Shown piece by piece: positions 40,074 to 64,000 of a stretch of DNA of 64,000 nucleotides; the first letter of the stretch is position 1, and each line of letters opens with the position of its first letter. The translations under genes were made by a program, and so were the position numbers. The notes beneath the pieces were generated by a model. It saw only the letters and a list, made by a program, of their open reading frames with translations. It was not told the DNA's origin and did no database searches. The DNA is from Mactromeris polynyma (taxonomy: Eukaryota; Mollusca; Bivalvia; Venerida; Mactridae), in the NCBI GenBank assembly GCA_032209605.1, contig JASFXZ010000005.1:29562905-29626904 (forward strand). Direction: 5' to 3'.

Positions 40074-40104
40074 ATATGTATACATACTCGTACCTGCATT
40101 AAAA

Positions 40105-40278
40105 CAGCACTGAAAGACCACCTCAATAAGAAGACCACCTCAAAATTTAAAAACACAATGTTCAAGTCCATTTTCCCTATTTTGCTCTTAAATCAACCAT
40201 AATATTAAAACCACCTCAATAAGAAGACCAGTTTTTAAGGGTCCCAAGGATGGTCGTCTTATTGAGTTTTTACTGTAT
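40105..40278. mobile_element. ACCTCAATAA element, uninterrupted copy
   Basis: ACCACCTCAATAAGAAGACC units and right end GGTCGTCTTATTGAGTTTTT then ACTGTA. Useful as the empty-site reference for 17120-17755. Confidence 0.55.
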
Positions 40279-40751
40279 CAGAGGCCTGTTGGTCTCTAGC
40301 GGGCAATGACCAAATATGGTATTATCTCACGGAAATATACGGAAAGTGGCGGCCACAGTCGGAGTCTAGTGGCGGGAAATACTCGAATCGTGGATACTCT
40401 TTCTTTCGGAGGTTTATACCGTTGATGAAAGACACGTTACACTTTGCTTATTGCAATTTTCACGACTCAAAGCGATATCGAGACGTATATAGTTGCTTAA
40501 AGTGTACTGTGTGTGAGATCTGCCCTCATTTCTTCCTGGCATTAGTCTGTTTGAGCACATAGTTTCTCTTACTTAGAAGATTTGGTTTTGCGGAATATTT
40601 GTATTGTATTTTCGCGATCCTTTCTTTTTGTGCTCAAAAAATCGTTCTGTAGATTATATTGCTCTGAATAAGGCCTCTGCCTTATACCGGACGTCCGAAT
40701 CTGTGATTGGGATCATTTCGTTTGTTGTTAGATTAGTGTAAAAGCTCTGGA

Positions 40752-41065
40752 ATAGGTGACTACCTACTTTTGGGGTAAGAACTTTTTGTTTTGACAAATT
40801 ATTGTTGATTTTGTTTTCTTTAGACTATTGTTGATTCTGTTTGCTTTACAATAGGTACCTACCTACTTTGGGGCGTGAGAATCAGTTACTAATCATTAAG
40901 ATCAGTTTGTTTTGTGATTAAGATTAGTTAATCGTTTTGGACTAGGCTGCTACCTACTTCCAGACGTGAGAATAGTTTGTTTTGTTTTTGATATTGTATT
41001 GATATTTAATTATTAAAGATTCTGACTTCTCAGTAGTAGGCTGCTACCTACTTTCTGGTGTGAGA
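40752..41065 (+). repeat. Four-copy ~94-bp tandem repeat upstream of the SGNH/transposase gene
   Basis: The core CTACCTACTTt....GTGAGAAT recurs at about 40760, 40859, 40950 and 41044, with spacings of 99, 91 and 94 bp. The last copy ends about 65 bp before the start codon, so the array is probably 5' UTR or promoter. Confidence 0.65.
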
Positions 41066-41126
41066 ATTGATATAAGCTTTGAATTTCTGATCTTTTACTG
41101 GCTTTCTATAGTAGATTTGATACAGT

Positions 41127-44100
41127 ATGGATTATGTTGATCGGTTGGAGGAAGTTTTAGTTTCAGGTTTTCCGTTAGCATTGGTTGCTGGTGATTCCAA
41201 TGTTCATCGAATCAACAATGTTGTGGATGAAGATGCAACAATAGAGTGTCTACCCGTCTCTGGTGAGTCTGTTTAATCTTTTTGAATCTATTGCAAATGG
41301 TTTTTACTTAACCACCACCAACACCACCAATTGCGTTAAGAGGGGGCATATATAGATTTGTCATCTGTCAAATTGTTTGTCTCCAATTTGTTGCATTTAA
41401 CTTTAGTAGTGTTTGAGCTACCATTACACTGTTCATTCATCAAACTAAACAGGAATATTAGTCTGCATCTGTAGTTACTAGGGGTGCAACGATACAGCCA
41501 ACCCGTATTGCGATATGTATCGCAATACATTACACACTTTTATGTAAAGAAAAACACAATGAAACTGAACCCATAGATTTATTTCCTTGTAGCTATAGCA
41601 TCAAAATCAAACAGGAATCAAAGGGAAACACTGAAGGCGGCATTGCCTTATACATCGGTTGGCTGTGGTGGCAACTTTTTGATGTCTCTACAAACGGCGA
41701 CCCATTTGATCTAAGATACTAGACATTCTAAAAGATGTAGCGGTCTTCAATAGTTTTAAAAGTCGGCTACATTGTTTGCAATATGTGCTGAAATATTAGA
41801 TAAAATATCGCAATACAGGGAAGTCGTACCACAATACGTATTGGCCAGACGCTGTATTGCAATATACCGGTACCGGTATATTGTTGCACCACTAGTAGTT
41901 ACCCAGCGTCTGCTTCGAGAGTGAAAGGTCCTCTGTCAAATCTCAGGTCGCAACAATACCACACAGTTATTTAAAATGGCACTGCAGGTAACTGGTAAAT
42001 ATTCCGTGTTTAATACTCATCATAGGTTAGTTCAAGGTAAATGCTCGTTCAACAGATTTGTAAAGATACCATTTTTGAAAACTGCTCTTGTTCATTGTAT
42101 AATTATTGCTTAATTTCATAATTTGTAGGAGCTAGATACATTGATGATAAGAAAATGTTCAGGAATCAGCTGAGTGTGTGTTTGAAGAAGGTCAGCTACA
42201 AACAACTGTACTTGTTCCTGGGATCCAATGATGTGCTGAACAATGATATTTTGTTCTACAGGTTGGTTATATAAGCACTACTTTGCTGATGTTTGATTGC
42301 CTTTTTTGCATTGAACTGTTATTTCTCAATCAACCAGATTTTGTTTTGATCTTCATGAACAGCTGATCTTAATATTTCTCTATTTATGATTTCTAAGAAG
42401 AAATTTGAAATTAGGTAACCTCATGATTTCAATTACCAAGCAGAGACTGAAACATGAATGAGTCCTGTTAATCATTAATGCTGTATTATTGTATCACCCT
42501 TATTTCATGACTGACTGACTGACTGACTGACTGACTGACTGACTGACTGACTGACTGACTGACTGACTGACTGACTGACTGACTGACTGACTGACTGACT
42601 GACTGACTGACTGACTGACTGACTGACTGACTGACTGACTGACTGACTGACTGACTGACTGACTGACTGACTGACTGACTGACTGACTGACTGACTGACT
42701 GACTGACTGACTGACTGACTGACTGACTGACTGACTGACTGACTGACTGACTGACTGACTGACTGACTGACTGACTGACTGACTGACTGACTGACTGACT
42801 GACTGACTGACTGACTGACTGACTGACTGACTGACTGACTGACTGACTGACTGACTGACTGACTGACTGACTGACTGACTGACTGACTGACTGACTGACT
42901 GACTGACTGACTGACTGACTGACTGACTGACTGACTGACTGACTGACTGACTGACTGACTGACTGACTGACTGACTGACTGACTGACTGACTGACTGACT
43001 GACTGACTGACTGACTGACTGACTGACTGACTGACTGACTGACTGACTGACTGACTGACTGACTGACTGACTGACTGACTGACTGACTGACTGACTGACT
43101 GACTGACTGACTGACTGACTGACTGACTGACTGACTGACTGACTGACTGACTGACTGACTGACTGACTGACTGACTGACTGACTGACTGACTGACTGACT
43201 GACTGACTGACTGACTGACTGACTGACTGACTGACTGACTGACTGACTGACTGACTGACTGACTGACTGACTGACTGACTGACTGACTGACTGACTGACT
43301 GACTGACTGACTGACTGACTGACTGACTGACTGACTGACTGACTGACTGACTGACTGACTGACTGACTGACTGACTGACTGACTGACTGACTGACTGACT
43401 GACTGACTGACTGACTGACTGACTGACTGACTGACTGACTGACTGACTGACTGACTGACTGACTGACTGACTGACTGACTGACTGACTGACTGACTGACT
43501 GACTGACTGACTGACTGACTGACTGACTGACTGACTGACTGACTGACTGACTGACTGACTGACTGACTGACTGACTGACTGACTGACTGACTGACTGACT
43601 GACTGACTGACTGACTGACTGACTGACTGACTGACTGACTGACTGACTGACTGACTGACTGACTGACTGACTGACTGACTGACTGACTGACTGACTGACT
43701 GACTGACTGACTGACTGACTGACTGACTGACTGACTGACTGACTGACTGACTGACTGACTGACTGACTGACTGACTGACTGACTGACTGACTGACTGACT
43801 GACTGACTGACTGACTGACTGACTGACTGACTGACTGACTGACTGACTGACTGACTGACTGACTGACTGACTGACTGACTGACTGACTGACTGACTGACT
43901 GACTGACTGACTGACTGACTGACTGACTGACTGACTGACTGACTGACTGACTGACTGACTGACTGACTGACTGACTGACTGACTGACTGACTGACTGACT
44001 GACTGACTGACTGCTTTCACTATTAATTATTTCCTCATATATTTTTTATGGTAACTAATGAAGGAAATATTGTGCAAATTTAGGAATGTGACTGAGGTGT

Positions 44101-45084
44101 GTGACCTAGTTCATGAAACTAGTCCAAGCACTGAAGTTATACTGTGTGAGATACCACAACGGGGACCCAGCCTGAGGAAGAACGTACCAATAACAACACT
44201 GAAGGCAATGCGGAAGTGGATTGTGTGTGCTAACATCACATTGAAGGAAATAAGTGCATGTACACCTTATGTTCGATTCCTCGCATGTGGTAGATTTCTG
44301 GTAAACAATTCTTTTATGAATTATGTCTTGACATTGAGTAGGAAAAATGAGTTCTTTTCTGTTAAGTAAATAGTATATATTGAAGATTAAATTACACCAG
44401 CTTTGATAACTCGGCTCAGTAGAGCTTCTGAGTGTGGGAGATTAGATGTTTGCTCCATAGTCCATAGCAAAGTCATACAAAAAAACATAATCTTAGTACA
44501 CATGTTTTCCATTGCTCAGCATGAAGATGGAAAACATGACTTCTTTTCTAGCATACTGTTGTGGTGATATTATGTTCCATCACAAATGAGGTGTCGAGAG
44601 TGATATGAAATTGAAATATCTCACATTCAATGTCTTAAAATAAATTGTGAAAATAGTCTTTTAAAAATCTGGTATACTTAGTGGCTCTATTAAAGAGGAC
44701 TGGTATATTGTTTTGCACGTCTGTCGGTAGACCAAAACCTTTTTAATTATTAAAGAAAACTTATACTAAGTACTCACAGTTGAACATATTACATGTTATG
44801 ATTTGTTATAAAAGCCATATTGTTAAATAATTTTTTGATATCATTAGGTTGCTCAACATTTGGGCTCTGATGGCCTTCACTTGAGTGTGGAAGGGGCAGA
44901 GTTGTGCCACAGGGCCATTGTAACCAACATTAGTGTAGAGGAGGAGCCCTTTTCTGTTAGCTCCCCATCCTTCATTGTTGAAGAATGGCCTGTTCTTGGA
45001 GACGTCCACACTGACAAGGACTTGGAGTCTAGAGCTGAGAACTACATTTACCACACTCCATATGCTGATATTGCTCGAGCTGAG
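41127..45084 (+). other. SGNH/GDSL-like hydrolase domain (exons 1-4)
   Basis: Block I is VAGDSNVHRI with the nucleophile Ser24. Block III is FLGSNDVLNND with Gly77 and Asn79. Block V is GSDGLHLSVEGAEL, with Asp170 and His173 in the D-x-x-H arrangement. These are the conserved blocks of the SGNH superfamily in the right order and spacing for a compact (~180 aa) domain. Similar esterase-like domains occur in ORF1 proteins of some CR1/L2-type retrotransposons (family knowledge). No signal peptide is present, so the product is expected in the cytoplasm or nucleus. Substrate unknown. Confidence 0.75.
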
Positions 45085-48000
45085 GTAATTCCATATATTA
45101 TGTCTGTATTTTGGGATATATCAATTCATTCATGGAAAAAGAAATTTTTAAAGGGTAGTTAATACTGATAATAGTACAGTCCATGAAAACATTGTCAGGA
45201 AAACCCACAACCGTATATAACTGAAATACTGCTGAAAAACGTCAGGAAACCTAATAGAACAAGTATATTGTATGATGATTGACATGTTCTTACTCTTTTT
45301 CTTTGTTTTAGTTTGTTTCAGGAGATATGGAAACTATGGAGCAAGTTGAAAAATGTAGGAAACCCAGAAATAAGAAGGTAATCATTTATACATTAACTTT
45401 GTTTATTGACAGGATTGTATATAAGTTTTCTGCATTTTAAGATAAGAAAAATCTTATTTATTTGTAATACAGTCAGGACTCGATATAACAACACTGTTTG
45501 TTACTGAGAAAAATAGTGATAAATCGAAAATGTTGGTATACTGAATTTCAGTAGAAAAATGTAGAATATTGAATGGGAGTATATATTGACATTTCGTGAG
45601 CTGAGGGTTCATGTACATATTTCCAAGTATAGTTACAAACTAAAATCATCCTACTGAAAATTTCATTTACATTGCAATTTTGGTTTCCGACTTTTTTGTC
45701 GGTATACAAATATTCTGTTAAAACCAATCCAAGTTATGTTGTAAAAGATTGATCCCCATCAAATTGATATTGTTATGTGAATTTGTCAGTATGACAGGTG
45801 TCATTGTAATAAGATTTGACTGTACCATAATCTTGTATATGTTATGTGGCATATAGAAAATTATAAATATAAAGCATTCGTTTTGTCTCAGGTTGTGAGT
45901 AGGAAGCGCAAACATCACAGAACAGGACAAAGTGAGAAGCGCATATTTAAACAAGGTCGCAAACGATGGCTGAAAAAGAAGGTAATGAATTGAATTTTCT
46001 ATTTTCTTGGACTTGTTACCTATATTTTATTGTTATAAGTGCCCTGTAGTAAGCCTCTGTCTGTTGGTCCACATTTTTCATTCATGAGATTTCTTTATAA
46101 CTTTCTAACCATTTAATGTATCATCTTTAAACATAAGGTAACAGAAGTACACTATTTATGACAAGTTATGCTTCAACTTCAAAACTGTTCCTACATGTAT
46201 ACTCCTGTTAATGTCATAATTATGTATAATATTCATAATACAATTTTCAGTTTGCAAGGAAATGTGACATGATGTATAAATTTAAAGAAGTTGTTATTAT
46301 TGAAGTTAAATTTAGCTCACCTGTCTCATAGTGACAAATGTGTGTTTTGTGATCACTCATTGTCTGTACAAGTGTCAACACTTGATCTGCAGGATAGAAG
46401 TGCTGATGACATTTGATTTAAGACTTAAGCATATGACCCCAATTTATTCAAATGACTACCATTCCACTATTGTTTCTAGAGTAACAGCCCCTGCAAAGAC
46501 CAGACATTAAGTTTTGTCTGCTCAAAAGAAGAATGAGGCTATACTTATAACAAAACCATAAGATCTAAAGGTTCTAGAATAACAGCCCCTATAAGTGCCT
46601 GAAATTTGATATTTTGATCTATGGGCCATATTTTTGTTTAATCTTCATGAGTCTTAGAGATGAGCGGCTCTGAGGTCCTCTTGTTTGTTTAATTGTTAGT
46701 TTGATTCAAGTTTTGTTACTTTGGAATGTTTAATCCAGTTTGATTCAAGTTTTGTTACTTTGGAATGTTAAATCCATTTTTGAATGTTATATATCCGTTA
46801 AATCATGCCGACTGACTCGTCTTACCAGTATAATTAGACTGTATTGTAACAAGTACCACCTTTGCAATAAGCAAGCAAGTTATGATGAGTCTTTCAATAA
46901 CTACCCTTATTGTGTTGGCCTTTGTTACTGTGATTATCTGTTATAATAAATAAATTTGACAATAAAGTTTGGTTACTTTGATAAGCATACCAGTAAAATG
47001 GTTGTATAAAGCCCGCATAAGTAAGAGTAATGAATTTGGTATGTGGTGGCCTGGGTTTGAACCTGGTACATTTGGCAATCATTAGTAATCTTCAAGCTTA
47101 AAAGTGTTAAATAAGTTTTTGTCATCAATATTGTAGGAGTGTAAAGCAACCACTAGATTATGTAGTTGTTTGCCTGACCAATGATGTGGCAATAGAGATT
47201 CCAGCTTCAATGACATCAGGAGCATGTTCAGTAAGTATAGATTTAGATAATCTTTAGTTGTTAGGAATACAACAAAGAATATTTTACTTCTTGTAGTGCT
47301 GTTGATTAAAGTTTTAATGAAATGTATATAGTCCCCAGATTATGATGAATCTTTATTATATAAACAATGAAAGAACATATGTTGATTCACATAGTTAAAG
47401 TGAGTTATGTATTTCAAGATTTTTAAATTTATTTTCCTTTAAAACATAATGATTGAAATTTTTTTGTAGAAAAGAAAGGAATCAACCACGCCTTGTGAAA
47501 CACAGCCTAAATCGAGACGCATTGTTAACCAAAGGACCAGATTGTCAAGAAACCAGGTAATTAGTTGGCTTATGCATAGTTATGTTTATGGTAAGATTAT
47601 GATTTGTAATAAAATATTCCTGAACCTATCTCAGGGTGAAACAATGCAGTGGTATGTTAGACATTATGTCTTTTATGTGAACATGATAAAAGTACCCTGC
47701 TAACTATGAGAAATGTGAAAATTGAATGACCAATCTGTGACTGCATGTGACTACTGTATAAAAAGTATTAATTTAAAACTAGGGACAAAGTAAGTCTAAC
47801 CTGTTTGCAAATACTAGAAATTATTAATGGTAAGTTTAAGGTCTTAGTTATGCTGTCCTTGAATCAGGTACCTCTGTCCTAGAATTCACATGGCCTTTAT
47901 TCTTATTAAATTGTAAAACATTAAACAATTTAATAAGAATAAAGTTTTACTCTATAATTATGATGAATTTATGAAATTATCTGTTTTTATGAAAGATATG

Positions 48001-51000
48001 GTTGCCATGTCCAGAGTGTAAAGTCAGATGTTCGAGGGAGGACTTTCTTCTAGACCATGTGATCCGGCGCCATGTCAACCAAAAGGCTGCACCTGAATCT
48101 TCTTCTCAGAAAGCTGCATGTAGACTTTCACAAACTACAGTATGTTTCAACAATTTATTTCTCCAGACAATTGTGCAATTCAGAAAATATTTATTATTTA
48201 ATGTGTGCTTTAGTCAGGAACAGGCATATTTGTGTTATATAGTTTATACTACATTACTTTAGGTTTTGTGTCAACAATTTCTTACAGCTTATACTTATCA
48301 TGAGCCACACCTCAATCCTGATGGTGTTCAGTGACATGAGGATATGACTGGGAACCTTTTGATGCTGAGCATATATCAATCTTTTGCTCATCATATTTAA
48401 AATCGTTTGTGACAGGATGCTTACACCCTTGTTTATTGCAGTTAAAAAGTGTAAACCCAAAACAAACAAAAACATCAGTAAAGTGTCCAGGTTCTAATTC
48501 AAGCAGTTTACAGTATGGGGTATCACTGTTTTATGTAAAATGTTTTAGTTTAGTGACTAAGATTATATCCAGGTTAAGATTGAGGTTATAGTTTGGATTC
48601 TTGGTGTTCACTGATAATGATGCTTCTTGTTTCCTACAGACAGACACTACTACAGATGAGGTATACACTAGCAGCAGCAAGGAGAACATTACCTGTCCTT
48701 CCACTGATCTATGTATGTATCATCATTTCAAGTAATAACATTCACTGGTCTTCATATCATTTTGTCTTTAACACAGGGTAATACAAGATACAGTGCAGGG
48801 CCTTTTTTCCAAAAATTGGGAAGGTGCCTTAGCCTTTCATTTTTTTTAGCGCGATTTTTGGCAAAATTGGGAAAAGGTTGACTGACTTTCAAAATACATC
48901 AATTAACAAAAGGCAGTCAGCATTCTATATTTGGTACTGATTTCCAACAATAACAACACTAAAAGTTCATGAATTGTATTTATTTCAAACATGTTTAGTT
49001 TATTGGCTTCATCAGGATATATTTAACACCAGTAGCCTGCTGAAAACTAAATTTCCCAAAAAAAAAAAAAATTTGGAAAAAAATGATGTTTTTGCAATTG
49101 GGAAGCCACCGAAATTCGACCCCTACTATAGAAGGTAAAAAGGCCCTGCAGTGTAGTAATTGGGATCAGTTAGCCCTTGTTAATATTTGTTCTGATTCAT
49201 ATATGTCTATCTGTTTAAAGACTGTTTTAAAAGAGAGACTGTTTTGTTTCAGTATGTTTAATAGCACAATTAAACATGATAATGCTTGATTTTAAGGTAC
49301 TGCAGAAGAAGTGAACTTGTCAGGAATAAGACTTCTCTTATCTAATGATGTGGAGACCAATCCAGGCCCGGTAAGTTACATTATTAAACATGATTCAATT
49401 TGCTGTAGCAAAAGTAAACATTTGCTTGGCATTGATGGAGATTTTTTTTAAATAAGTTGGCACTTTAGACATTAATAATTTTGATTAAACATTAAGTTGT
49501 CTTGTTAATGTTAAATAGTTCTATTATTATTAAACATGGTTTGTTTACTTAACATTTTTATTAATCAGTACTATAGGAAATTTTGTAATTAGTTAGTAAC
49601 TTTTTCTTTATATTATCAAAGGTATTTGCTTTCACTTGTTTACTTTAAAGACTCGCTTAGATAAAGCATCTCTGATACATACGAGTGTGCTTAACAGCGA
49701 AAGCTCTTGTTTATACGTATATATTTACTCAAAACTTATCTGGTATAAGGAAAAAAAATCATTTTTCAAATCTAGTATTTTTATTCTGTAGATCTTTAAC
49801 TGCAAATGGGAGAATTGTCTGGAGACCTTCTCTACAGCTGGAGAATGTGACGCACATGTTGTTGCACATGCTGCTAGCGATAAATGCTGCAGATGGGAAG
49901 ATTGTCAGAGATTCAAAATTGAGACCCCAATTCATCAACTTGAGATCCACACCATCCGACATGTTTATGACGTATGTGTTATTAAATGTTCATTGGTTTA
50001 TATCACTATAATTTAAAAACCAAACAATCATCATATTTCTAAATTAATTTTTGACTTATAGCCTTCTTCTATATCATAAGTTTGTGTTTCTAAGATTGTG
50101 AAAAGAAATGAAAAAGCAGAAATTACTTATAAGTCATGAATCTTATTTAACAAAAATCAACCGAAAATCTGTTTTACGGTGCACCAACACAGTATAGGTG
50201 CCTAAAAAGAAAAATTAGCTCAGCTCCACATGATATTTACATCAAGAAAAAAATATAACACATGGAATATCAGCAAAATATCAAGCTTCATTGGCAAACA
50301 TTAACTGTCAATGTTATATAACAACTTAACATGTTTCAGAATGAGGCATTATTCCCATCATTTGAAGAATGGATTGCAGCACAGCCAGGTGGGAAGTTTG
50401 ACCAGACACAAAATTTACATTGTTGCCCAAAACATTTGGTAAGTGTTGTGAAATTGCCTCAAATGCTTATATTCGTTTTGGCCTAGTGAACGCTTTAATT
50501 TCCATCCACTGAAGCCCTTGTGTCTGTTTTCCTTGTTTGATCATCCAAAGTAAGGATGAACATACATTTTCTGCTCAATGATTTGCTGTTAAACAAGTAA
50601 GTTACTATAAACAGAGACATTGATACCTATGTTAAAACTCATCGTATTTTAACTTTTCATTGTAGAGATCAAAGCTGCAGATGTTATTGTTTGATGAAGA
50701 TTTTGAGATTTCAAAGCAATATTACAGTACAATCAATCACGGGGAGTATCTATCATTTCAATTTTATCATTATCCTACTAAGTTTTTACAGGATGAGAAT
50801 AATTTTTTGTCAAAACGTAGGTTACTAGGAGAAGATTGGTCAAGTTATATAGGTCAGGCTTCCTCAAGTGAACCGACTGCTTCTACTTCAGACTCACAGT
50901 CCGATTCGAACCACCAAGCCCAAAGACAATTTTATTCCGTGCCCTCCAAGACCAAGTACGAATTTGTGCAAACCACTAGGCCGGAATTATCTAGTAGGTA

Positions 51001-54000
51001 CTATTCAGGATCACATCTAAAACCAAAGAAAGTTTCAAAAAGAAAACATGAAAATTTGGTGACTGTAGATTTAGATCAAAACAATATGCCATGGTTTCAA
51101 CTTTTACTATCCAATCTATCCAATTGTAACAGGGCTATTTGTTACCAGCATGAAATACTGGACAAAATTCATGAAAGTGGCATGATTGATCCTAATAATC
51201 CAACTTTCTTTAACATTGAACAGGAAGCTGCCAAATTATCATCAACTGAGAAATGCACTGCTGGGACCTTCATTTGCTTTGTTTTTAAATGCATTATTAA
51301 TGAGGAAGAATTTATCTATATTAGGTATTTAGAGTCTGGTTGTTTCTCTGGTTATATGCACCAAAAGCATATGAAGATTCTTTCTGATAAATATCATTTT
51401 AGTGACAATAACTGTTTTGTTCATTGTGTGTACACTGTAGAAGATTTTGAAGATATGAAAAAGGTAGCTGACAACAAAAAGACGAAAAGAACAAGACCAG
51501 ATAAAATACGTAAAAATGTTGTTAAAAATACTTTGCCATTAAATGTTTATCATTTGCAGAATTTGATTTCATCACCTGTGGAAACATCAAATGTCAATTT
51601 GGAGTCTTATCTTGTGAACATTTGGCCATATAAACCAGACACATCAGTTGAAAGTCCTGAGACCCCATACCTTGAAGTCAGTAACCCTTTATGTCTGGTT
51701 GATATCAAAAATAGTTTGATAGATTTCAGGATTAATAACCTACAACGACAGACAGTGACCTCCAGCAATATTTTTCAGAAAGAGCTTCTTACTAATAACA
51801 GTTCTTTATTTCAGCAATCTATAGTCCTCAATTGTTTATCTAGCAACATTAAAAGGGAGCAGAGTAAACATTTATTCAAACATCCAGGAAGATACAATGC
51901 TAATTTCTTGAAGAGTCCTTGTTATACCTCGTCTCTTAGAAATCATATTTTTATTTTATATTTAGCGAAAGACTTAACTCTTCTGCACTCATTCCTCATT
52001 AGATATTTTCCAGAACTAGGTGATCAGTTAGCAGCGATTCCAGAAACTTCAGTAACGGCTGAGGAGCCATGTGCCAAAAAGAAGAAAATTGTTGTTGTTA
52101 AAAGTGTTTCAGTAAACAAGTCGGTTCTGGAAAAAAGGCTAAAACCAGATGCAACCAACATTTCATCAACCACAGAGACAGACACGATACCATTATTTGA
52201 TACTTTTTGTTTTCAACTTTTACAGCATGGGAAATTATCTATTCAGTCTATAGATGAATCTGGGGATGTTGTATGTGCCATGAATGATTACAGCGAGACT
52301 GATGGTTCATTTCGTGAAACAGATTTTGTTTATACTTATAACATGTCTCAGGATGGTGGAAAATATTTTTTTTGTAGCTGCCGTACATTCTCTACTCTGT
52401 TACATATTGATGACTCCCGAAGTAATAATGAATTTGTTGTTTTAGGTTCTGCAGGAGAAAACTGTGTCACATGTATGCACTGTAAATTTTTAAGCCAATA
52501 TGTGCTTCCTTATGTACATTCTGAAATTTCAGATAGTGAATCTCCTGTCAACAATTTTATTCGCAAGGCTGTTGAAGACAAAGGGAAGGAGATAGTTGAA
52601 CTTGTTAAAAAAAATAATACACGCAAATTTTCAGTATTTTTTCCAGAAGAAGGACAACCAAGTTTTGTAAATTTGACATTTAGTTCTAGTATAGGGAAAT
52701 ACATTGTGTCATGTACGAATGGTCAATGTCTGTCCAAAAAAGGGCACAAGAGAAATATTGAAACTTGGGAACAAACGTCTGTGTGCAAACATCTGTCTAC
52801 TCTTCGAAATCATTTAGAACATTGGCAAGATTTGAAAAGCAATGAAACTTTTATTACTAATGAAGATGAGAATAACAATTTGAATGAACTTGAAAATGAG
52901 GTTACCTCGGTAGACAGTATAATAGTTTCGTCCGAGTCGGCAACTAATTTTGATGAACAAACTGGTCATTGGCAATACAAATGTAAGAGTTCTCATAAAC
53001 CAAAAACTAAAGGTAGTGAATCACTAAAATCCAATTTGCTAAAAAGAGATCTTTGGAATGATAACAATTTAAAGAGAGATCAAGATGGTTGCTTAATTGG
53101 TCCTAGTTTATTTCCAGATATGCCAGACAACACGTGTGACTGTGGTGCTGGTTGGTTAAAGAGGGATGATGATGATAATTACCATCCAAATGGAAGGACT
53201 GTACAGGAAAATTCCAGGGTTTTAAATGTTTATACTTTTGTTGCACCTGTAAAATGCCAGATTCATAGTCGGATTTGCTACAATGATCAAAATCCATGTA
53301 AAATTAGCTGGGATGAAGGGAGTTTAGAATCTTTGCATGTTTTAAGTAGGGACACAGCAGCTGGGGATGAAATTGGGTGGGAGTTTGTTTCTATGGTAAT
53401 GAATTCTGGCTGTACATTTTCTTCATACTGTAAACTTAAAAATGAGTGTTACCAAATTAGAGATTCTAGAGCTAAATTTATGGATGCAACTGTTTTTCTC
53501 AATTGGTGGTTTAGTTGGGCAGCTAATATGAAAATTGATTTCAGGGAGGCATGTGATGTGTGTGGGTATGAGCCTAAAAGGTTGTGCTGTGATGGTACAA
53601 AAGTAGGGGTAGGCTTCAGGCATGCTAACTTTGTAGAAATTGAGAAGGTTAGTTCTGATGCTCCTGAGCATCCTACATTACATCGTAGAATGGACAGATG
53701 TTTTTTAAAAAATGGTGTAGGAAACATTACTGTTTCTCAGATGATTAAAAATAGAAAAATAATGGATTATTTGGCTAGAGAAAAATTACATGAGCTAAAA
53801 ACAGAAGAAATATTAACTCCTGAAGACCGAAGTCATGCAGTAATATCATTAAAGTTATGTTTGCCTGAAGAATTTTTTCTTTCATTTGATAAATTTGAAC
53901 CTCTTGATAGACCATCTGATATGCCTGAAGGTGAACAAGCTGCTTATGCTGTGCTTCTTAAAATGTTAGCAACAACTGCCTCAGTAACAAGCCTAGTACC

Positions 54001-54904
54001 CCCGAAATATTGTCCAGAATTACAACGCCTGCTTGAACCCACCATTGATGTCATTACATTAAACAATGTCATGAAAAATATGCGATATTATGCGCCTGAA
54101 CTTAGAGATTTTATTTCTGAATCACTGTTAGCAAATCCTTCAGATGATGGCAAATTGGAAGAATATATCTCCTCATTTTTGAGGTATTTAATTGATGAGT
54201 CATTAAGTTTGCCTGTTCATGAGGCAGATCCAGCAACACCTCAGCCTGGCTCATATAATCCTGCTAAATACGGTAGAGCATATTATTTTAATAAATTGGG
54301 TTTAAAATTAAGGGAAGTAAGAAAATTCACAATCGATTGTAACAAATCTTCTAAGAATAATGATGATCATGATGATGCTGCCCAAGACTTTGAGAAGTGC
54401 CAAAAGTTATTTTCCAAGGCTCACATTTCTGCTAGGGGTACAACAAGTTTATTTCTTTGGTTCTGTGCTGATCATGGTCATTGTTATGGATTTCATATGA
54501 CATATGCTGAGGGTAGAAAAGATCCATCTGCCTCACTTTATTCTTATCTTGAAACTCCACCATCAGAAGTATTTTATGATTATGCCTGTGGTCTTCAAGA
54601 GTATAGTTTAAACAGGGAAAATGCATATTACAAGAATGTTCGATTTTTTCATGACATCTTTCACAGTTACTCTCACAAATGCTCACATGCGTTTAGGTCA
54701 TCCCGCTTACAAGGATTTGAATCTGTTAACTCTGAAATATGTGAACAATTTAACAGTTATTTACAAAACATAAAAAAATCGGCCAGACAAATGACACAAG
54801 AACATTTCTGTTTTTATCTTCAGTTCTTTTTGCATCAGTGGAACATCAAGAAAAGAAATGTTTATCAAAAGAAGATTAAAGTTGCATTAGCAGGATTGCA
54901 TTAG
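41127..54904 (+). CDS. SGNH-hydrolase / zinc finger / 2A / KDZ-like transposase gene (15 exons)
   Basis: Exons: 41127-41262, 42129-42261, 44084-44300, 44848-45084, 45312-45377, 45892-45981, 47138-47230, 47470-47556, 47996-48139, 48442-48519, 48640-48712, 49297-49370, 49792-49971, 50340-50438, 50666-54904. Every junction has a GT donor, an AG acceptor and matching phase, giving about 1,981 aa. Domains in order: SGNH-like hydrolase 1-180 (GDS 22-24, GSND 77-80, DGLH 170-173); basic linker 242-350; C2H2 finger 358-379; 2A motif 469-476; paired C2H2-type fingers 480-533; transposase-like region 570-1981 with SWIM-type CxC...CxH at 1139-1174 and a candidate D1545, D1874, E1926/E1929 triad. Inference: ribosome skipping yields a ~475-aa esterase-like protein and a ~1,506-aa DNA-binding transposase-like protein. 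Whether it is mobile or domesticated is unknown. Least certain exons are 5, 7, 10 and 11. Confidence 0.75.
42508..44013 (+). repeat. 1,506-bp uninterrupted (GACT)n microsatellite
   Basis: About 376 copies of the tetranucleotide with no substitution or indel visible, in the intron between exons 2 and 3 of the SGNH/transposase gene. It reads as Ser-Val-Ser-Gln repeats in any minus frame and is not a gene. Length may reflect assembly limits. Confidence 0.98.
46699..46776 (+). repeat. Short tandem duplication
   Basis: AGTTTGATTCAAGTTTTGTT then ACTTTGGAATGTT.AATCC occurs twice about 39 bp apart, in the intron between exons 6 and 7. Confidence 0.7.
47895..47944. repeat. Perfect 20-bp-stem hairpin
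   Basis: CTTTATTCTTATTAAATTGT and its exact inverse are separated by 10 bases, about 50 bp upstream of the zinc-finger exon 9. Possible branch-point region structure or a mini-palindrome. Confidence 0.75.
47996..48139 (+). other. C2H2 zinc-finger exon (exon 9)
   Basis: Reads WLPCPECKVRC then SREDFLLDHVIRRH: C358-x2-C361-x12-H374-x4-H379, a C2H2 finger. It belongs to the protein half before the 2A motif, together with the Lys/Arg-rich exons 5-8, suggesting nucleic-acid binding by the esterase half (inference). Confidence 0.75.
48796..49149. mobile_element. TIR element CAGGGCCTTTTT in the intron before the 2A exon
   Basis: Starts CAGGGCCTTTTTTCC and ends GGTAAAAAGGCCCTG; CAGTG flanks both sides as a possible 5-bp duplication. 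Subterminal AAAATTGGGAA / TTCCCAAAAA is also inverted. Noncoding. Confidence 0.65.
49297..49370 (+). other. 2A-like ribosome-skipping exon (exon 12)
   Basis: The exon reads TAEEVNLSGIRLLL followed by SNDVETNPGP, a full match to the D-V/I-E-x-N-P-G-P consensus with the usual upstream hydrophobic helix. The final proline codon CCG is the last codon of the exon, directly followed by the donor GTAAGT. Skipping would separate Gly475 from Pro476. Known: 2A-like motifs are functional in some non-LTR retrotransposons and host genes of marine invertebrates. Confidence 0.88.
49792..49971 (+). other. Paired C2H2-type finger exon (exon 13)
   Basis: Two fingers with C-x4-C spacing: CKWENC...HVVAH (C480, C485, H498, H502) and CRWEDC...HTIRH (C509, C514, H529, H533). 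The C-x4-C and W patterns resemble GLI/ZIC/AEBP2-type finger pairs. It is the first module after the 2A site, so it would be the N-terminus of the transposase-like product. Confidence 0.75.
50666..54904 (+). other. Transposase-like exon 15, KDZ/HMGXB3-related
   Basis: One intact 1,412-codon exon. Zinc-binding clusters: FFCSCRTF to CVTCMHC (SWIM-type, C1139, C1141, C1172, H1174); SCTNGQC to VCKH (C1252, C1257, C1276, H1278); CDCGAGW; CQIHSRICYNDQNPC; CDVCGYEPKRLCCDGT. The catalytic-core candidates are CCDGTKVGVGF (D1545), VFYDYACGLQEY (D1874), FFHDIFHSYSHKCSHAF, and SEICEQFNSYLQ (E1926 or E1929). This order matches the RNase H-fold transposases with CxC clusters called KDZ, and the transposase-derived part of HMGXB3-type proteins (family knowledge, from memory). 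No internal stop or frameshift. An in-frame ATG is at 50681. Confidence 0.7.
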
Positions 54905-55002
54905 TCCAAGCTTTGTTGATTTTAATCATAATCATAATTTTGTATGTTTTTAGCTTTACTATTTTAGTAATAATTTTATGTGCAAGTTGCTATATCTCAA
55001 CT

Positions 55003-55920
55003 GCTCAGGGGTGATGTGTTAATCACTACCGACCTGTCCAAATATATTACCATATACTCGGGGGTGATGTGTAATTCACTACCGACCAGTCTTAATATAT
55101 AACCATATACTCGGGGGTGATGTGTTAATCACTACCGACCTGTCTTAATATATAACCATATACTCGGGGGTGATGTGTTAATCACTACCGACCAGTCTTA
55201 ATATATAACCATATACTCGGGGGTGATGTGTTAATCACTACCGACCTGTCTTAATATATAACCATATACTCGGGGGTGATGTGTAAATCACTACCGACCT
55301 GTCTTAATATATAACCATATACTCGGGGGTGATGTGTTAATCACTACCGACCTGTCTTAATATATAACCATATACTCGGGGGTGATGTGTTAATCACTAC
55401 CGACCTGTCTTAATATATAACCATATACTCGGGGGTGATGTGTAAATCACTACCGACCTGTCTTAATATATAACCATATACTCGGGGGTGATGTGTTAAT
55501 CACTACCGACCTGTCTTAATATATAACCATATACTCGGGGGTGATGTGTTAATCACTACCGACCTGTCTTAATATATAACCATATACTCGGGGTGATGTG
55601 TAATTTACTACCTACCTGTCATAATATATAACCATATACTCGGGGGTGATGTGTTAATCACTTCCGACCTGTCTTAATATATAACCATATACTCGGGGGT
55701 GATTTGTTAATCACTACCGACCTGTCTTAATATATAACCATATACTCGGGGTGATGTGTAATTTACTACCTACCTGTCATAATATATAACCATATACTCG
55801 GGGGTGATGTGTTAATCACTACCGACCTGTCTTAATATATAACCATATACTTGGGGGTGATGTGTAATTCACTACCGACCTGTCTTAATATATAACCATA
55901 TACTCAGCAATGATGTGTAT
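55003..55920 (+). repeat. 53-bp minisatellite, about 17 units
   Basis: The unit contains CTCGGGGGTGATGTGTTAAT, CACTACCGACCTGTC and TTAATATATAACCATATA. Units carry GTGAT...ATCAC, a 5-bp inverted repeat. Starts about 100 bp after the transposase stop codon, so it is in or beside its 3' UTR. Confidence 0.93.
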
Positions 55921-55934
55921 ATCACTAACATATT

Positions 55935-57120
55935 TATTACCATATATGTCTGGGTAAAACAACTTTAGGTTACAAATATGACCAGCTATTTATTGAAACA
56001 CCTTCACAGTGTTTGTCTATGTTCAATACTGTGTTTTCCGGGGTGGGGGGGGGGGTTATGTTATGATGCCCAAATTGCAGATACATTGTTACTCTTTGTA
56101 CGGCATACTATTAATCAAACCTGGTCACAATCTTTGTCTATACAAAACCTTGGTCTATTTGTTAGTTGAATTCAATTACTTAGTACTAGGTTGTCCAGTT
56201 TAAAAACTAGGTAATGAGGCTGAATTCTAGAAATGCAGAGAAATCAACAGGTCATATTGGTTTGTTATCTTAAAGAAGTCTGCTCTAACTGTTTGTCTTT
56301 TTGAAAGTCTTTATTGCATTCTCAGGAGCCCAAATATATGTAACAAGTAAAAATCATTGAAATACCCATACTAAGATTTGGTATTTGTATACTGCATTAT
56401 TAAGAAATACCCATCCACATGGAGTTTCCCTTTTAAAAAGCTGAACCAAGCTAATTCCGTCATCTTGGGTAAAAATTAGGTCACTAACCCAAATCAGAGA
56501 CATTAATTACAGGTTAAACTTCAATCAAATCTCTGGTTTATTACTGAAAAAAATTAGGTAACTGCACCAACGTCGGGTCCCAAGTCCCGAGTGCAAAAGC
56601 AGGAGGGACTAATTACTTCTGTACTAATTTTTAGAATTTTGCTTCAGTTTCTGGAGATAATTTAAAAAATATAGCCTACATGCTTTTTAGTGCAATTCAA
56701 CATTAAAAAATTCAGTTTCATTTAATATTCACACAATTGGTAACACCATGGAAACTTTGGATATCCAAATGGTCTAAGTAAGGACAACTGTTATTTCTTT
56801 ATTGAATACAGTAAGTCTGGGTTCAAACCCCAGTTTGGATCATAGTTTTCAGTTATCATTTAATTGTGTATATATCTTTAAATATCTAAACTGAATTAAT
56901 AAACTTACTTATTTATCTAATTTTAAAACAATAATTATATGTATAATGGACATGTTCTCTATTTCAGTGAAGTAATAATCAGGTTATTTCTTGACAAGGT
57001 CAATAATGTCGAGATTCTGCTACAAGAATCACATATTGCTTAATGTGTTTTAAGCAAAATATTTGTTTTACCATATGTTAGTGAAAATAAAATTGTTAAA
57101 CTGCTTGATACTGTTATTTT
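55935..57120. other. Noncoding, low-complexity
   Basis: A G-run of about ten lies near 56048. A tRNA B-box-like GGGTTCAAACCCC is at about 56819-56831, probably a SINE relic. No gene seen. Confidence 0.4.
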
Positions 57121-57124
57121 TTAT

Positions 57125-57560
57125 TGAACATGTCCGCAGTACAGGACAACTTTGTCCCAAATGAACGGGATAGGTGCATGCTGAATCAAATGTCTGTATG
57201 ATATGACCAACTATAGATTGAATCAAATATTTCCGTAGTATAGGACCACGGACATTATATATAAACTCCATGATAAGACGAACTATGTTCGCAATGAACA
57301 GGTACATGTTGGATCAAATATGTCCGAAGTATAGGACAAACTATATCTCGGATCAAATATTACCATAGTGTAGGACCCGGGATCAAATATGTGTGTAGCA
57401 TAGGACAAACTATATCTCAGATCTTTCCATACTATAGCACCACGGACAAACTTTCGAAATGAACCGGTACAAGTTTGATCAATATGTCCATTGTATAGGA
57501 CAATCTATGTTCACAATGAGCAGGTACACGTTGGATCAAATATTTCTGAAGGACAATTAA
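57125..57560. repeat. Degenerate tandem repeat
   Basis: Diverged units built on GGATCAAATATGTCCGTAGT and ATAGGACAAACTAT, with AATGAACAGGTACA. About seven to nine units of variable length. Confidence 0.55.
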
Positions 57561-57667
57561 ACTACTACATGAAGATTATTGAAGTATGTCAAACATGAAC
57601 AGGTGTGCACACGTTAAATCAAATAGTCGGTGCACTTAGTTGGCAACAGTAAATAAATACATGTGTA

Positions 57668-58595
57668 CGAGGGATGATCAATAAATAACGAGAAAATGCT
57701 TATATCTTTTATTTGATCTTACTCAAATTTAAGCAAAATGTGGTAAAATATATTAGCAACCAATCGCTAATTTTTCAAGATTACAGTGACACAGTGCTCA
57801 TATCTACGGTAACGCCCAGTATGCTAAGGCGGGGCATTTTGCAGGTTTTCGCCTATTTTCATGCAAAATAAAACGCTTACAACTTTTATATTAGGAATTG
57901 TAATTTAATGACAATTAGTAGTTATGGTCACCTAAGACTCGCCTTACTGATAATGATCTCATACACGTGTTGTTGTTTCATATATTACGTCATACTTGTG
58001 TAGACCAAACGTTCGAGAAAACGAAAAGTTATGAAGTTATGAAGTAAAAAGAAAAAAAAATATTTGTGCGTGAGAATAAGTATACTTTGGTGATCATACT
58101 ATGACAAAAGATATGCTTTATATAAAGCAGGAGAGTTTTAACAATGTTTGAGAAAACAGTAGTGATCTACCGCGAAATGGCGAAATGCGACGTCGACATC
58201 AGATCACCGTACACAGAGTTGTATGGGCTGACCGAAATTCCATAGGGTGACTATTTGATTCACTTTACAGTATACAGAAATATATGAATGGTTAAGGAGA
58301 GTATAATGAAAACTTTTGAAGAAAGAACAACAATAGGACTTATTGAGTATTGTCGTCACAATGATAAACGTTATACTCAGATTTACGTAAAAAAAATATA
58401 TAAATGACTTTGCCCCGCCTACGGCATTCATAGGTCGGCAAAAATGCTCTTAACAATTTATTTTTCAATATATTTGCTCATTGTTTCGTATGATTTCTGA
58501 TAATACATGCTTTAATCACCATATGAAATATTTCAAGAAAACAATGTATTGTAACAAAGTTATAAGCATTTTCTCGTTATATATTGATATATTGC
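57668..58595. mobile_element. Mariner-like nonautonomous element
   Basis: Left ACGAGGGATGATCAATAAAT then AACGAGAAAATGCTTATA. The inverse of the last part recurs at the right end (TATAAGCATTTTCTCGTTAT). The left terminus resembles that of the mariner relic at 5193. No intact transposase frame. Confidence 0.65.
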
Positions 58596-59039
58596 GAACA
58601 CCACCCCGAGTATGACTCGAGAGTTCCCGATCCATTCGTTGTTCGATCGGCTGCATATTAGAGAGAATAGTCGGTAATAACTAAAAGCACTCATGTCGTG
58701 AATTTAGTCTGACGTCGTTGACGTCAACCGTGTGCGCAAGGTCGACGTTATTGCCCTTATTCAAAACTGGTATTTTTAGACCCTGTGTATGTTTCAGTTT
58801 ATAACTGAACTGTCTTTAGGAGAAATTTTCCGCTTTCTACAGGATCAAATGTTGATGTATATTATTCAACCATATCGAGTTTTATGATAATGATCCGGTT
58901 TATCCCACGTATTTGTTTATTGTGTCTCATGCAAATTGTTTTTAAACGACGTTCCTTGAACTGCCAACTATGAAGCGGTATGTTGAATAGACATCTCCGT
59001 ATTTACGTATAAACCGTATCTACCGGGAGAATGTTAAGT

Positions 59040-59100
59040 GTGGTCTTAAACAAATGTATATTTAAAATTGTCGTAAAAATACAAACTGATCTGTAAGGTG
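59040..59100 (+). other. Possible splice donor of an upstream exon
   Basis: GATCTGTAAG followed by GTGAGTTC is a strong donor-like sequence, preceded by GC-richer sequence with several CGs (58,610-58,760). It could be a noncoding first exon of a gene outside the window. Weak. Confidence 0.2.
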
Positions 59101-59977
59101 AGTTCTTATTTTTGTGTATTCAATACTAGATGCTTATGGCGAAATAGCTGTAGGGAGGTTGCGAAAAGACCCAGCATATACGTGGAAAATAATAAAAAGG
59201 CATGTTGCGAAACAAAACGTGGACGTGTAGACGTACAAGTTGCAATTAAAATTCACTTGCTAAAACAACGTGAGCGTGTATAATCACTTGAAAGTTGAAG
59301 CATGATTTCTTCCTTAATATATATGAGTGTTTATAATAACTCACTATGGATATGTTCTATACAGTCATGTATGTACCGTGCGTGTACGTTCCTTATAGTG
59401 TGTGTCGTATAAAACTAACTACTACAATTGACTACCGCAGTAGGCATCATTGTTTATATCTCAAATTGTATGGTTAACTCGTTCTCATGTGTATTTCACG
59501 AGCGTTGACATTCTCAAAGTTACCATCAATCTTTTTCTTTTGCCCTGTGCAAACTAGCCAGGCCCTAACCTAATGTGGTGATGCTAGCAAGCTATGAACA
59601 ATGATGTGCATATAATCCACTACTTGTGACAGACTTACAGTATGAATGAGGCTTGGCTCTGTGGGGTGACAAGAAAGCTCCTATGCTATTCGACAGCATG
59701 ACAAAGCCTTGAACACAATGCTTCCTTTTGATATTGACTTTCTATTTGCATATCTTGGTCGAATGAGGCCATGCTTTTTACCAAAGCTACACACCACCTT
59801 ATTATGTCACAGGTGCAAACTATTTTTTTCACAACAGCCCTATTTGTGCTGGTGGCAGTCGAAAAAATAGCCTCATACATATAGTCAGTGATGTTATCCA
59901 TATTAACTCATAACTGGTGTATGTGAAGTAAGTCACATTGATATCGGTTGTTTGTGCAACTTTTCCAGTTTGCTGCG

Positions 59978-60070
59978 ATGGGCGAGTGGTTTAATGCGTC
60001 CCTATTTTGCATTGCTAGGCAATGGTGCCGATCAGTATGGGTATGAATCCTGCTATAGCTGCAAACTTTT
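59978..60070 (+). repeat. tRNA-like relic (long variable arm type)
   Basis: GCTGCGATGGGCGAGTGGTT matches the 5' half of tRNA-Ser/Leu-type molecules (A-box), and GGGTATGAATCC matches the B-box. Stems are imperfect and the anticodon is unclear, so it is a pseudogene or SINE head. Confidence 0.55.
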
Positions 60071-63000
60071 TGTGTAATTTCATGGTGTTTTAACTATGTC
60101 AGTATATTATCATTATTGTACATGTACAGAGATTAGACTCTTATAAAGATGTATGTGCCATTCTAGTGTAGAACTGACTGACAAACGGATTAACACTAGC
60201 TTCTCAAATTTACAATAACTGAAGATCCTATCATAAATATAATAATAAATCTAGTTAACATTTCACCAGTTTCTTTGTAAAATATAGTTGCATAGTTACT
60301 CATAAGATAATCAGATAATTTTCACAAATTCCTATCATCTCTTCCTGAAAAAAGGCTAAGTTTGGGGGGTGGGCGGAACTGCAAATTAATTGCGAAAATT
60401 ACACAAACTTTCATGAAAAGGATATAGCAAAATGTAATGGTATCCACAGGTACAGACATACCAAGTATGCTGATCCTCAATGGAAACATGCTCATGTGTT
60501 AAAAATTTATTATTCGTAACCATTAGGAGCTTTAAAGCTGACCAAATGACAAAAGTGTATCCTTCTGTAAGGTATCAATAAACCCAGTTTGATAAGTACA
60601 TATACTAAACAAACAGCTAACCGAACACTTTAAGGTTTTCTATTAATACGTAATATACGATGGATATGTTTAGTCATTTCTCGTATTTAAGCTATTTTCA
60701 ATAGGTATTTCCTAAAATTTGGACTGAAATAAAAACGATTTGTCAGAACTGCGTTGTCAAAATTTTAATTGTTTACTTTATTTCAATTATGGTTTAATTA
60801 CAATTTAATTAACAAAGATGAAATTTAACAAATTTAACTCAAACGCCATATAGGATGTACAACTTAGAATTGCAAAAACATAGAAAATTAAAAGCCATCG
60901 TTTTACGGTAAAATTGAAGTTTAAATAATGTTTAAAATAATCTGTGAATAAGCTAAAAAAGGGAGGTAATTACAAAAGAGTTATCACGCTTAAATTTAAT
61001 ATTTTACTAACTTCTTTCATTTTCAGTGTTTTTATATTTATATCATGACGTATAGTGATGCACACATGAGTAAAAATAAAACAAAACAAATTAAGCACGA
61101 TATAAAACTGAGCGACAATGTTGCAACCTTACTGGTAAGCAAATCGATCTACCATTTTCGATTTCATAGTAGCAAAGTGTCCTTGTCTTCAATTTTTTTT
61201 TTTTTTTTTTTAATCTGACCTATTCATGTGCTATAAAATAGGTGCAACATAATCGTAAATGAGACACGTCCTCGAGCTACTTGTGCAAAAATGTGATTTA
61301 ACCTAATTCGATTTGGATGAATGATTATCAATAGATTCTCAACTGCATTTGATGCATAATATAATATTTCAGTTTTAAGTGTTTGGATAAAAAAATAAAA
61401 AACAAAAATATGTTCAAGATATAACAGTCTGTATACATTGTAGAACAGAAATCCAAAAACGCAATTAACTCATATTTCCCTGTTTTCCCTGACTGAAAGG
61501 TGATTTCCCCTGAAATTCGTGCTGCCTACAAAGCTCAAATACAGCTTGCATATGTATGACCTCAAACCTTCCCTAATAGCCATACAGAGACTACCATAAA
61601 GCAAATCTCATCATTAACTGAGATCCTTTGTGTTTTTGGGTTGGTCAATTGCTTTTAAAGTAAAATATATGGCAAATAGTGCTTTCTACTAAAGTCAGAA
61701 AGAGACACTACCAATAGCCAAGATTTTTTCATTCCAATTTCAAAGTAAAATTCCCCGTTTTTTCCATGCAGGGAATTTATAAAAAGCTACAAACCAACTT
61801 ATTTTCGCGAATAAAAAATTGGGTGTTACATTTTGCCCATTATGACTACAAATGTTGGTGTATGCAAGTGCAGAAAAATTAAAGAAAATGGTTATAGAAC
61901 AAATTTGCAGATATTTAAGTTTGCAGATTATTTGCAGAATAATTTGTTGGTTTATAGTACTCCCTTTTCCATGTTTCCTTGATGATCCAATTTATCTAAA
62001 GATTTTACAAAAATTATTATTTCAACCAAGATAATCATGAAGATGAAGTGAAATTGTGACACCTATTTTCAGCAATGTATTGACCAGGTTTGTCTTAAAT
62101 AGATGTCTTTCAAAGCAATTGATGACTACGGACAGATGAACAACAGACAAAGAGTGATAAAAAAAGCTCACATTGTTACTTCATGACCCGGTGAACTAAA
62201 AAGCAAATCATTTGTCCAACATTAGATACATGTTCATAATATAATGTCTTGCAAAAGAGGAATATTTTAGACAGCTTCTTCTGATGGCTGTTTCATCAGA
62301 CCTTGGTTTGATCTATTTTCATTTGGATCTTCACAATAGTGTAACAGTGACATCTAAACCTGAAAATACTAAATAATGTCATTCAGAGAATAAACTAGAA
62401 TTCATACATAAGGCCCTTACAATACCAACTTGTCACAGAAGCAGATATTTTGCCGTGGAAAAAGAGTATAAACTCTCCAAAAATTTGAGTTACATTCTAT
62501 TGACTACAAATATTGTGGTCAGCACTGTAATGAAATTTTTAAAGTTCAAATACATATCCTATTTTGACCCAAAGCCAAAAAGTTACCAAAACAGCCATCA
62601 ATATACAGGTAATTTGGTCAGTGAATCTGTTTTGGTTATCAGTAAGTACGAGCAAGTAAATGTGGGGTTTTCTATTGTTCTTTTTTTTGTTTTGTTGCAC
62701 CCCACAAGTGACGGAATAAATTGAATCTAAAATTAGCCTACTGTTCCACACCCCACAACTACCTCTGGGTGTGTACGAACGCACAGACAGACAAAAAGAC
62801 AATTATTTACAGTAAAAAGGAAATCAGTTTTTATTACCATTCAATGGTCCTGGCAAGTCTTGACACTGATCTTTTTTGTCAATTCTCTCCAATACAGCTC
62901 CTCCTTGATTGACTGTAAACCATCAGTTTGGACAGCGTTCAGCTTACACTTACAAATCAAATATGTCACACCATTTAAAAGCTGAAAATCACAATTTTCT

Positions 63001-63130
63001 GAGATTAGGAACAAGAGATTGCAAAAGGCCCTTGGTCGCTCACCTGTTGTAGCTGAACCATTGACCTAGTTCTTGACACCCAGATGACTATTTTGGAACT
63101 CTATCTAGATTTTATCTAGACAAGCATTCC
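60070..63130. other. AT-rich noncoding sequence
   Basis: No coding exon with convincing splice context or recognised domain. A poly-T tract of about 20 lies at 61191-61211. Confidence 0.45.
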
Positions 63131-63135
63131 GACCC

Positions 63136-63808: not shown

Positions 63809-64000
63809 GACCAACTTTTACTAAGATACAGTGAAAAGACCAGCCTATAATGCATACCACCGTTTTGACTATGATTTGACTTAATGACCTAGTTTCTAAC
63901 CAAAATGACACAATATCAATATTTACCTTAATTTATTAGAGATGATCATTGTGACAAAGTTTCAAAAGATAAGGATGAAATTGTAACCTCTAGGGTTTCA

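Follow-up and report, generated by a model that had tools for sequence, protein, structure and literature searches.

The stretch analyzed here, called the window below, is 64 kb (64,000 bases) of the genome of the bivalve Mactromeris polynyma with a G+C content of 35%, and positions are counted from its first base unless a contig is named. It contains a long plus-strand gene, at 41127 to 54904, that lies inside a dispersed element of ~32 kb encoding a putative transposase of the Kyakuja-Dileera-Zisupton (KDZ) type. As modeled from the genomic sequence, the gene has 13 exons, its introns are all GT-AG and consistent in phase, and the predicted protein of 1,924 amino acids (aa) has no inner stop (Table 1). 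All 1,412 codons of the last exon are open, compared with a longest frame of 171 among 300 base shuffles of that exon. When ten homologues were compared with the window by tblastn, collinear matches were found to 10 of the 13 exons (exons 1 to 4, 6, 8, and 10 to 13), with exon 6 matched at E = 0.064 only. Exons 5, 7, and 9 are matched by none of the ten homologues and have the support of splice sites and frame.

A preliminary description of this DNA, made from its letters alone, had placed an SGNH hydrolase, C2H2 fingers, a 2A site, and a SWIM/CxC, KDZ-like transposase in one open frame at this location, and our model agrees that these regions share one frame. Residues 1 to 190 contain the SGNH blocks GDS (residue 22), GSND (residue 77), and DGLH (residue 170), and the Ser, Gly, Asn, and His blocks are all present. 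The Pfam profile Lipase_GDSL_2 matches the window protein at E = 8.5e-4, which is under the cut-off, and matches the homologue P0077 above it, at E = 7.4e-11. The SGNH alpha/beta/alpha fold is strongly predicted for a homologue, and the best sequence match of the family profile in PDB is the esterase of a zebrafish long interspersed nuclear element (LINE) open reading frame (ORF) 1 protein (ZfL2-1 ORF1p, PDB 4c1b). The catalytic blocks, the Pfam match of the homologue, and the predicted fold together uphold the SGNH assignment. A C2H2-like finger is found at residues 327 to 348 and two further finger-like stretches follow the 2A site; the fingers match by pattern but score under the Pfam cut-offs, so this claim holds in part. 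The octapeptide DVETNPGP at residues 412 to 419, a full match to D-V/I-E-X-NPGP, ends a 2A sequence that spans residues 395 to 419, and its conservation in homologues bears out the 2A site. Ribosome skipping would be its activity, and not every 2A/StopGo motif is active (PMC11512398; this and the other papers below are cited from excerpts).

The KDZ-like transposase is confirmed by PF18758, which scores above its Pfam cut-off (Table 1). In an alignment of the window protein with 48 of 75 relatives, one D of the acidic D, D, E never varies and the remaining two are conserved in at least 90%; we infer from conservation and fold that Asp1488, Asp1817, and Glu1872 are the catalytic residues. Both folds are predictions, and the match of the KDZ half to DDE transposases is modest. 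The SWIM/CxC part of the earlier assignment was not confirmed: the cysteine cluster has no Pfam match in the window protein; PF18717 is annotated for many relatives and is under cut-off in P0023. The KDZ model has no significant match in a viral fold library, and six peptide patterns found 0 matches in viral contigs.

Table 1. Features of the element and of its gene in the window
Feature	Position	Strand	Content or evidence
Part of the 31,879-base element inside the window	40279..64000	+	C201 copy match; 3' end of window copy read directly
5' terminal inverted repeat and 5' boundary (CAGAGGCCTGTTGG...)	40279..40319	+	Copies diverge upstream; inverted match to 3' end
Four imperfect ~95-bp repeats (CTACCTACTT..GTGAGAAT)	40746..41067	+	Upstream of ATG
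Exon 1	41127..41262	+	Start codon, SGNH block I (GDS, Ser24)
Exon 2	42129..42261	+	Gly46 region, GSND (Asn79)
Exon 3	44084..44300	+	SGNH core
Exon 4	44848..45084	+	Final SGNH block DGLH (Asp170, His173)
Exon 5	45312..45377	+	Splice sites and frame
Exon 6	45892..45981	+	Basic stretch, KRWLKKK at its end; weak P0077 match, E=0.064
Candidate alternative exon outside the model	47137..47230	+	In frame, protein ends after ECKATTRLCSCLPDQ, 15 residues on
Exon 7	47470..47556	+	Splice sites and frame
Exon 8	47996..48139	+	C2H2-like finger CPECKVRCSREDFLLDHVIRRH
Exon 9	48640..48712	+	Splice sites and frame
Exon 10	49297..49370	+	2A sequence ..LSGIRLLLSNDVETNPGP; 2A end is exactly the exon end
Exon 11	49792..49971	+	Two C2H2-like fingers immediately downstream of 2A
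Exon 12	50340..50438	+	Homologue match (tblastn)
Exon 13	50666..54904	+	KDZ transposase, 1,412 codons
Asp1488 codon (CCDGT), proposed first catalytic Asp	53591..53593	+	Conservation, fold
Pfam KDZ match PF18758	54317..54844	+	E=6.3e-10, 39.6 bits vs cut-off 26.6
Asp1817 codon, proposed catalytic	54578..54580	+	Conservation, fold
Glu1872 codon, proposed catalytic	54743..54745	+	Conservation, fold
53-bp minisatellite, 17.5 units, within element	55004..55927	+	Length varies among copies

The exon count of the preliminary description (fifteen exons, 1,981 aa) was not reproduced. The segment 47137 to 47230 cannot be put into the full model without breaking the frame, and a search for a companion exon of suitable length found none that scored. 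The acceptor score of this segment is 4.4, lower than those of all twelve acceptors used in the model. The homologues P0076 (300 aa) and P0077 (287 aa) stop at about the segment's own stop, near the end of exon 6, and a short, SGNH-only form made through the segment is therefore possible; we regard it as a lead. Read in another frame (DYVVVCLTNDVAIEIPAS), the segment has a likeness, seen by eye and unscored, to a block in P0005, P0016, P0075, and P0078, and a decayed exon or an alternative one may lie here.

Homologues are found in other animals. The transposase half retrieved 75 proteins, with P0001 the best match at 75% identity; the named best matches are from bivalves (Dreissena, Mactra, Mercenaria, Mya, Mytilus, and Argopecten), followed by Hydra, Lineus, and Clytia. 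In a full-length search, residues 1 to 512 retrieved only 3 proteins. The motif D-x-E-x-NPGP is present in 10 of the 75 transposase-half matches and in 14 of the 86 proteins in all; three more cases of NPGP that lack D-x-E are left out of the counts. Because most of the 86 proteins begin downstream of the 2A position, its absence from them says little; it is present in all seven that extend at least 100 aa upstream of the projected start of the last exon. SGNH, 2A, and KDZ-exon sequences are joined in one protein in five bivalve models: P0005 (Mercenaria, 1,921 aa), P0016 (Mactra, 1,701 aa), P0019 and P0086 (both Mya), and P0075 (Mytilus). Each of the five is incomplete somewhere: P0005 is without the initial SGNH blocks, P0016 stops early and is under every Pfam cut-off, P0019 has a KDZ score under the cut-off, P0075 is without a KDZ match, and P0086 ends upstream of the KDZ domain. 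The Mya proteins P0011 and P0038 are 98.4% identical over 832 aa. P0008, P0010, P0030, and P0086 are 91 to 99.6% identical in their longest stretches and as low as 73% elsewhere. The contigs of these proteins are of different lengths, but P0008 could stem from a second annotation of one species. A 413-aa Mya arenaria protein, P0080, has an SGNH domain of this kind followed by a fragment of the endonuclease-reverse transcriptase type, both under Pfam cut-offs; either the gene model is chimeric or the fusion is genuine.

In the M. polynyma genome, the ORF of the last exon has at least 33 matches (the best 33 of 135 candidates, window included), of which 32 span all 1,412 residues (four of these with a frame of 1,409) and 31 have no inner stop. 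The complete exon set was checked in the copy on contig C201, and copies L001 to L008 were checked for the last exon and the 1,500 bases before it. The 4,239-base last exon has no differences in any of these eight copies, and the preceding 1,500 bases have 1 difference in total. For the initial 848 bases of the element there are at least 40 matches (the best 40 of 67 candidates, window included), all at 100%. Dozens of near-identical copies suggest very recent jumping, and to judge from these sequences the mobility of the element probably lasted into the very recent past.

Toward the 3' end, the window was aligned with 20 copies, each in at most 3 pieces, and 17 of them match as far as 58589. 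The match of a C201 copy (L013) continues to 59782, the end of its stretch; that of a C250 copy (L025) skips from about 55965 to 61735; and the copy at C245:35710161 (L015) matches in the start of its stretch and the satellite only. In the pieces compared, the C201 copy matches window positions 40276 to 64000, except for a 20-base gap in 41128 to 49166 and about 150 bases absent near 56555 to 56705. Further 3', the C201 copy is at 100% to the window end and a C1 copy is at 99.9% over 4,000 bases. A 914-base element with 33-bp inverted ends occupies 57676 to 58589. After the stop at 58589, the match resumes 1,117 bases later in 3 of the 17 copies, and part of that segment resembles window positions 35195 to 35395 at 87%.

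The length in Table 1 is that of the window copy, whose 3' end lies at C245:29635061, 8,157 bases past the window end. This end was recognised from its similarity to the reverse complement of the 5' end (41 columns, 88%, E=1.6e-8), so that the element is bounded by ~41-bp inverted repeats with 5'-CA..TG-3' termini. A search of the window alone for inverted ends with 6- to 9-bp duplications gave nothing credible because the 3' end is outside it. Among 20 stretches besides the window, the 5' end was seen in 13 at first, with 7 too short, and in 2 more once these were extended. The 3' end was seen in 7 of 9 stretches and then in 2 of 8 more (two stop inside the end and four fall short), with different following sequence each time. 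Thus, 16 copies were read across the 5' boundary and 9 across the 3' boundary; their flanks differ and their end points are shared, within about 6 bases on the 5' side. Homology among the 16 copies starts at window positions 40277 to 40285; two start a few bases further in, and 9 have an extra AT before the boundary. This AT precedes CAGAGG in 8 of the 9 copies on contig plus strands and in 1 of the 7 on minus strands, which is probably chance since contig strand is arbitrary. The paralogue search proposed as a check in the preliminary description has returned at least 32 full-length last-exon matches; boundaries are shared and flanks differ in the copies whose ends were read.

In the 8 copies for which both ends are known, no consistent target-site duplication was found. 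Words common to the two junction regions have a mean maximum length of 4.1 in own pairs versus 4.6 in 56 crossed pairs; the C101 copy has a 7-mer common to both junctions, and crossed pairs reach 8. Zisupton and Dileera elements are described as producing 8-bp duplications and Kyakuja elements 7-bp duplications (PMC12730594), and in the eight copies own pairs did no better than crossed pairs. Therefore, although we take the element, from its sequence, to be a DNA transposon that codes for a KDZ transposase, we do not file it under Zisupton, Dileera, or Kyakuja.

The window copy directly abuts the end of a ~180-bp repeat (40097 to 40276) that is very common in the genome (the best 40 of 7,307 candidates were scored), and two other copies of this flanking repeat did not reveal an empty site. 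Farther upstream, outside the element by 1.5 kb, is a perfect inverted repeat at 38315 to 38811 with 216-bp arms and a 65-bp loop, and there are minisatellites at 26545 to 29316 (42 bp, 66 units) and 33432 to 34345 (60 bp, 15 units). Just past the 3' end of a C201 copy (L033) is what may be a host-gene exon with a kringle-like domain, a name given by eye.

Inside the element, the four ~95-bp repeats may serve as a promoter or as binding sites for the transposase. Downstream of the minisatellite, the ~16 kb read in the window and in the C201 continuation has no ORF of more than 115 aa outside satellites. Five ORFs of 76 to 115 aa in this 3' part have 0 Pfam matches, and no reverse transcriptase was seen in a profile scan of these five ORFs. 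A single gene is therefore recognised in the element. Other insertions are present in its introns. Intron 1 contains a miniature element at 41479 to 41894, named hAT-like by eye, that has inverted ends and a perfect 8-bp duplication, GTAGTTAC; the same insertion is present in three other copies (L040, L048, and L051), which places its arrival before the burst. Intron 9 contains a second miniature element at 48796 to 49148 that has CAGGGCC ends and CAGTG on each side, and intron 2 contains 1.5 kb of pure TGAC repeat (42508 to 44013, 376 units).

Based on these observations, we conclude with a probability of about 0.8 that the window locus is one copy of a ~32-kb KDZ-type DNA transposon whose 13-exon gene encodes a 1,924-aa 2A polyprotein that combines an esterase/finger part and a transposase. 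The preliminary description had left a choice between a new autonomous transposon architecture and a domesticated gene. The former is favored by the full-length last-exon copies, the at least 40 identical matches to the 5' end, the shared boundaries, the inverted ends, and the differing flanks. Domestication of a KDZ transposon as a host gene, with fusion of the SGNH part by the host, would account for the long intact frame, the many introns, and the retention of the SGNH catalytic residues, but it is very improbable given at least 32 full-length last-exon matches on many contigs with common inverted ends and differing flanks. Copies that are almost identical across kilobases could also come from segmental duplications or from an assembly artefact that multiplied one locus. 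We give this hardly any credence, as 16 5' ends and 9 3' ends have differing flanks at common end points (within about 6 bases at the 5' side) and the inner satellites vary in length among copies.

The transposon could instead carry two genes, one for the SGNH/finger protein and one for the transposase, that the model has wrongly joined. The joined model comes from genomic sequence, the short SGNH proteins P0076 and P0077 end near the end of exon 6, where the alternative exon at 47137 to 47230 would end the protein as well, and exons 5, 7, and 9 have no homologue match. We nevertheless judge two genes to be decidedly unlikely, because phase is continuous across all 13 exons, because a 2A sequence is meaningful only within a joined frame and is conserved at that place, and because parts of both halves are combined in single gene models from Mercenaria, Mactra, Mya, and Mytilus; the polyprotein might also coexist with a short isoform. 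It is also unlikely that the ~32-kb unit spreads by another route, such as a circular or recombinase-mediated step or a larger carrier, with the KDZ protein as a passenger or acting without target duplication. Such a route would agree with the lack of a target-site duplication in 8 of 8 copies, with the unusual length, and with the ~16-kb 3' part that has no recognised gene. Against it are the ~41-bp inverted ends with 5'-CA..TG-3' termini and the DDE-type transposase as the sole large intact gene seen, and a Zisupton element of Pristionchus is likewise described as having inverted repeats and no detectable duplications (PMC9297572).

For the KDZ transposon encoding a 2A polyprotein, we propose the following course. 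Transcription would start near the four ~95-bp repeats, and ribosomes translating the spliced mRNA would skip one bond at the 2A sequence that closes exon 10. The first product would be a 418-aa protein with the SGNH esterase, the basic stretch, and a zinc finger, and the second a 1,506-aa protein that starts with proline and carries zinc fingers and the KDZ core. The transposase, with Asp1488, Asp1817, and Glu1872, would mobilise the element after binding to its ~41-bp inverted ends. The esterase, which is most like those of LINE ORF1 proteins, might help movement through membrane or lipid contact (tethering complexes) or by deacylation; such roles have been suggested for the LINE esterases and discussed for texim (PMC4021074). 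The most far-reaching reading, a ~32-kb element that jumps now, makes no target duplication, and uses 2A polyprotein machinery with a LINE-type esterase as transposition helper, is a tentative proposal to which we give somewhat less than an even chance. Dozens of near-identical copies with defined ends make excision and integration open to assay.

Odon in 2013 reportedly described 2A/StopGo sequences in non-LTR retrotransposons. Their presence there is also stated in PMC11512398, and the likeness is D-V/I-E-X-NPGP in the polyprotein of a mobile element, whereas the element here is a DNA transposon. The SGNH blocks and fold as mobile-element cargo are shared with ZfL2-1 ORF1p and with LINE/Penelope esterases, which are described in retrotransposons with reverse transcriptase (PMC3905857). 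Two features known from retrotransposons, an esterase of the ORF1 type and a polyprotein split by 2A, thus appear within a DDE-type DNA transposon. Among the papers listed in our literature searches, judged by titles and abstract openings and with Repbase outside the scope, none pairs a KDZ transposon with an SGNH domain or places a 2A site in a DNA transposon. The preliminary description knew of no account of this combination, and the esterase-2A-transposase polyprotein was likewise absent from the papers listed; an SGNH gene beside a DNA transposon has a precedent in texim (PMC4021074). A survey of bivalve DDE transposons used 17 superfamily profiles, none of them for KDZ (PMC10294476).

Zisupton/KDZ DNA transposons are treated in PMC12730594, PMC9297572, and PMC12062965, which cite Boehne 2012 and Iyer 2014. 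The present element resembles them in a KDZ domain over the Pfam cut-off, a multi-exonic gene, inverted ends, and dispersed copies, and it differs in the added N-terminal SGNH hydrolase and 2A sequence, in its length of ~32 kb, and in the lack of a 7- or 8-bp duplication. Since Zisupton elements are already described as multi-exonic (PMC9297572), the many introns here are no surprise. Kyakuja shares a KDZ transposase and 5'-CA..TG-3' termini, but as described it has 7-bp duplications and no inverted repeats, which is the opposite of what we find (PMC12730594). Teratorn, one of the giant DNA transposons, is likewise a very long animal DNA transposon (PMC10175614); in contrast, no viral or cargo gene is recognised here, only satellite-rich DNA and the one gene. 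An animal DNA transposon with a single gene can thus reach ~32 kb, with satellites and other insertions inside, and still multiply. The texim genes are multi-intron SGNH hydrolase genes mobilised by fish Helitrons, with LINE (CR1) esterases and platelet-activating factor (PAF) acetylhydrolase as relatives, and an aid to transposition has been proposed for them (PMC4021074). A multi-intron SGNH hydrolase on a DNA transposon is common to both systems, but texim is a separate gene beside a rolling-circle Helitron, whereas here one frame joins the hydrolase to a DDE-type transposase via 2A. The help by SGNH proteins that has been proposed for LINE and Helitron movement therefore becomes directly testable, and if the esterase does act as a helper, the LINE-type esterase would be a working module across three classes of mobile DNA: LINE, Helitron, and KDZ.

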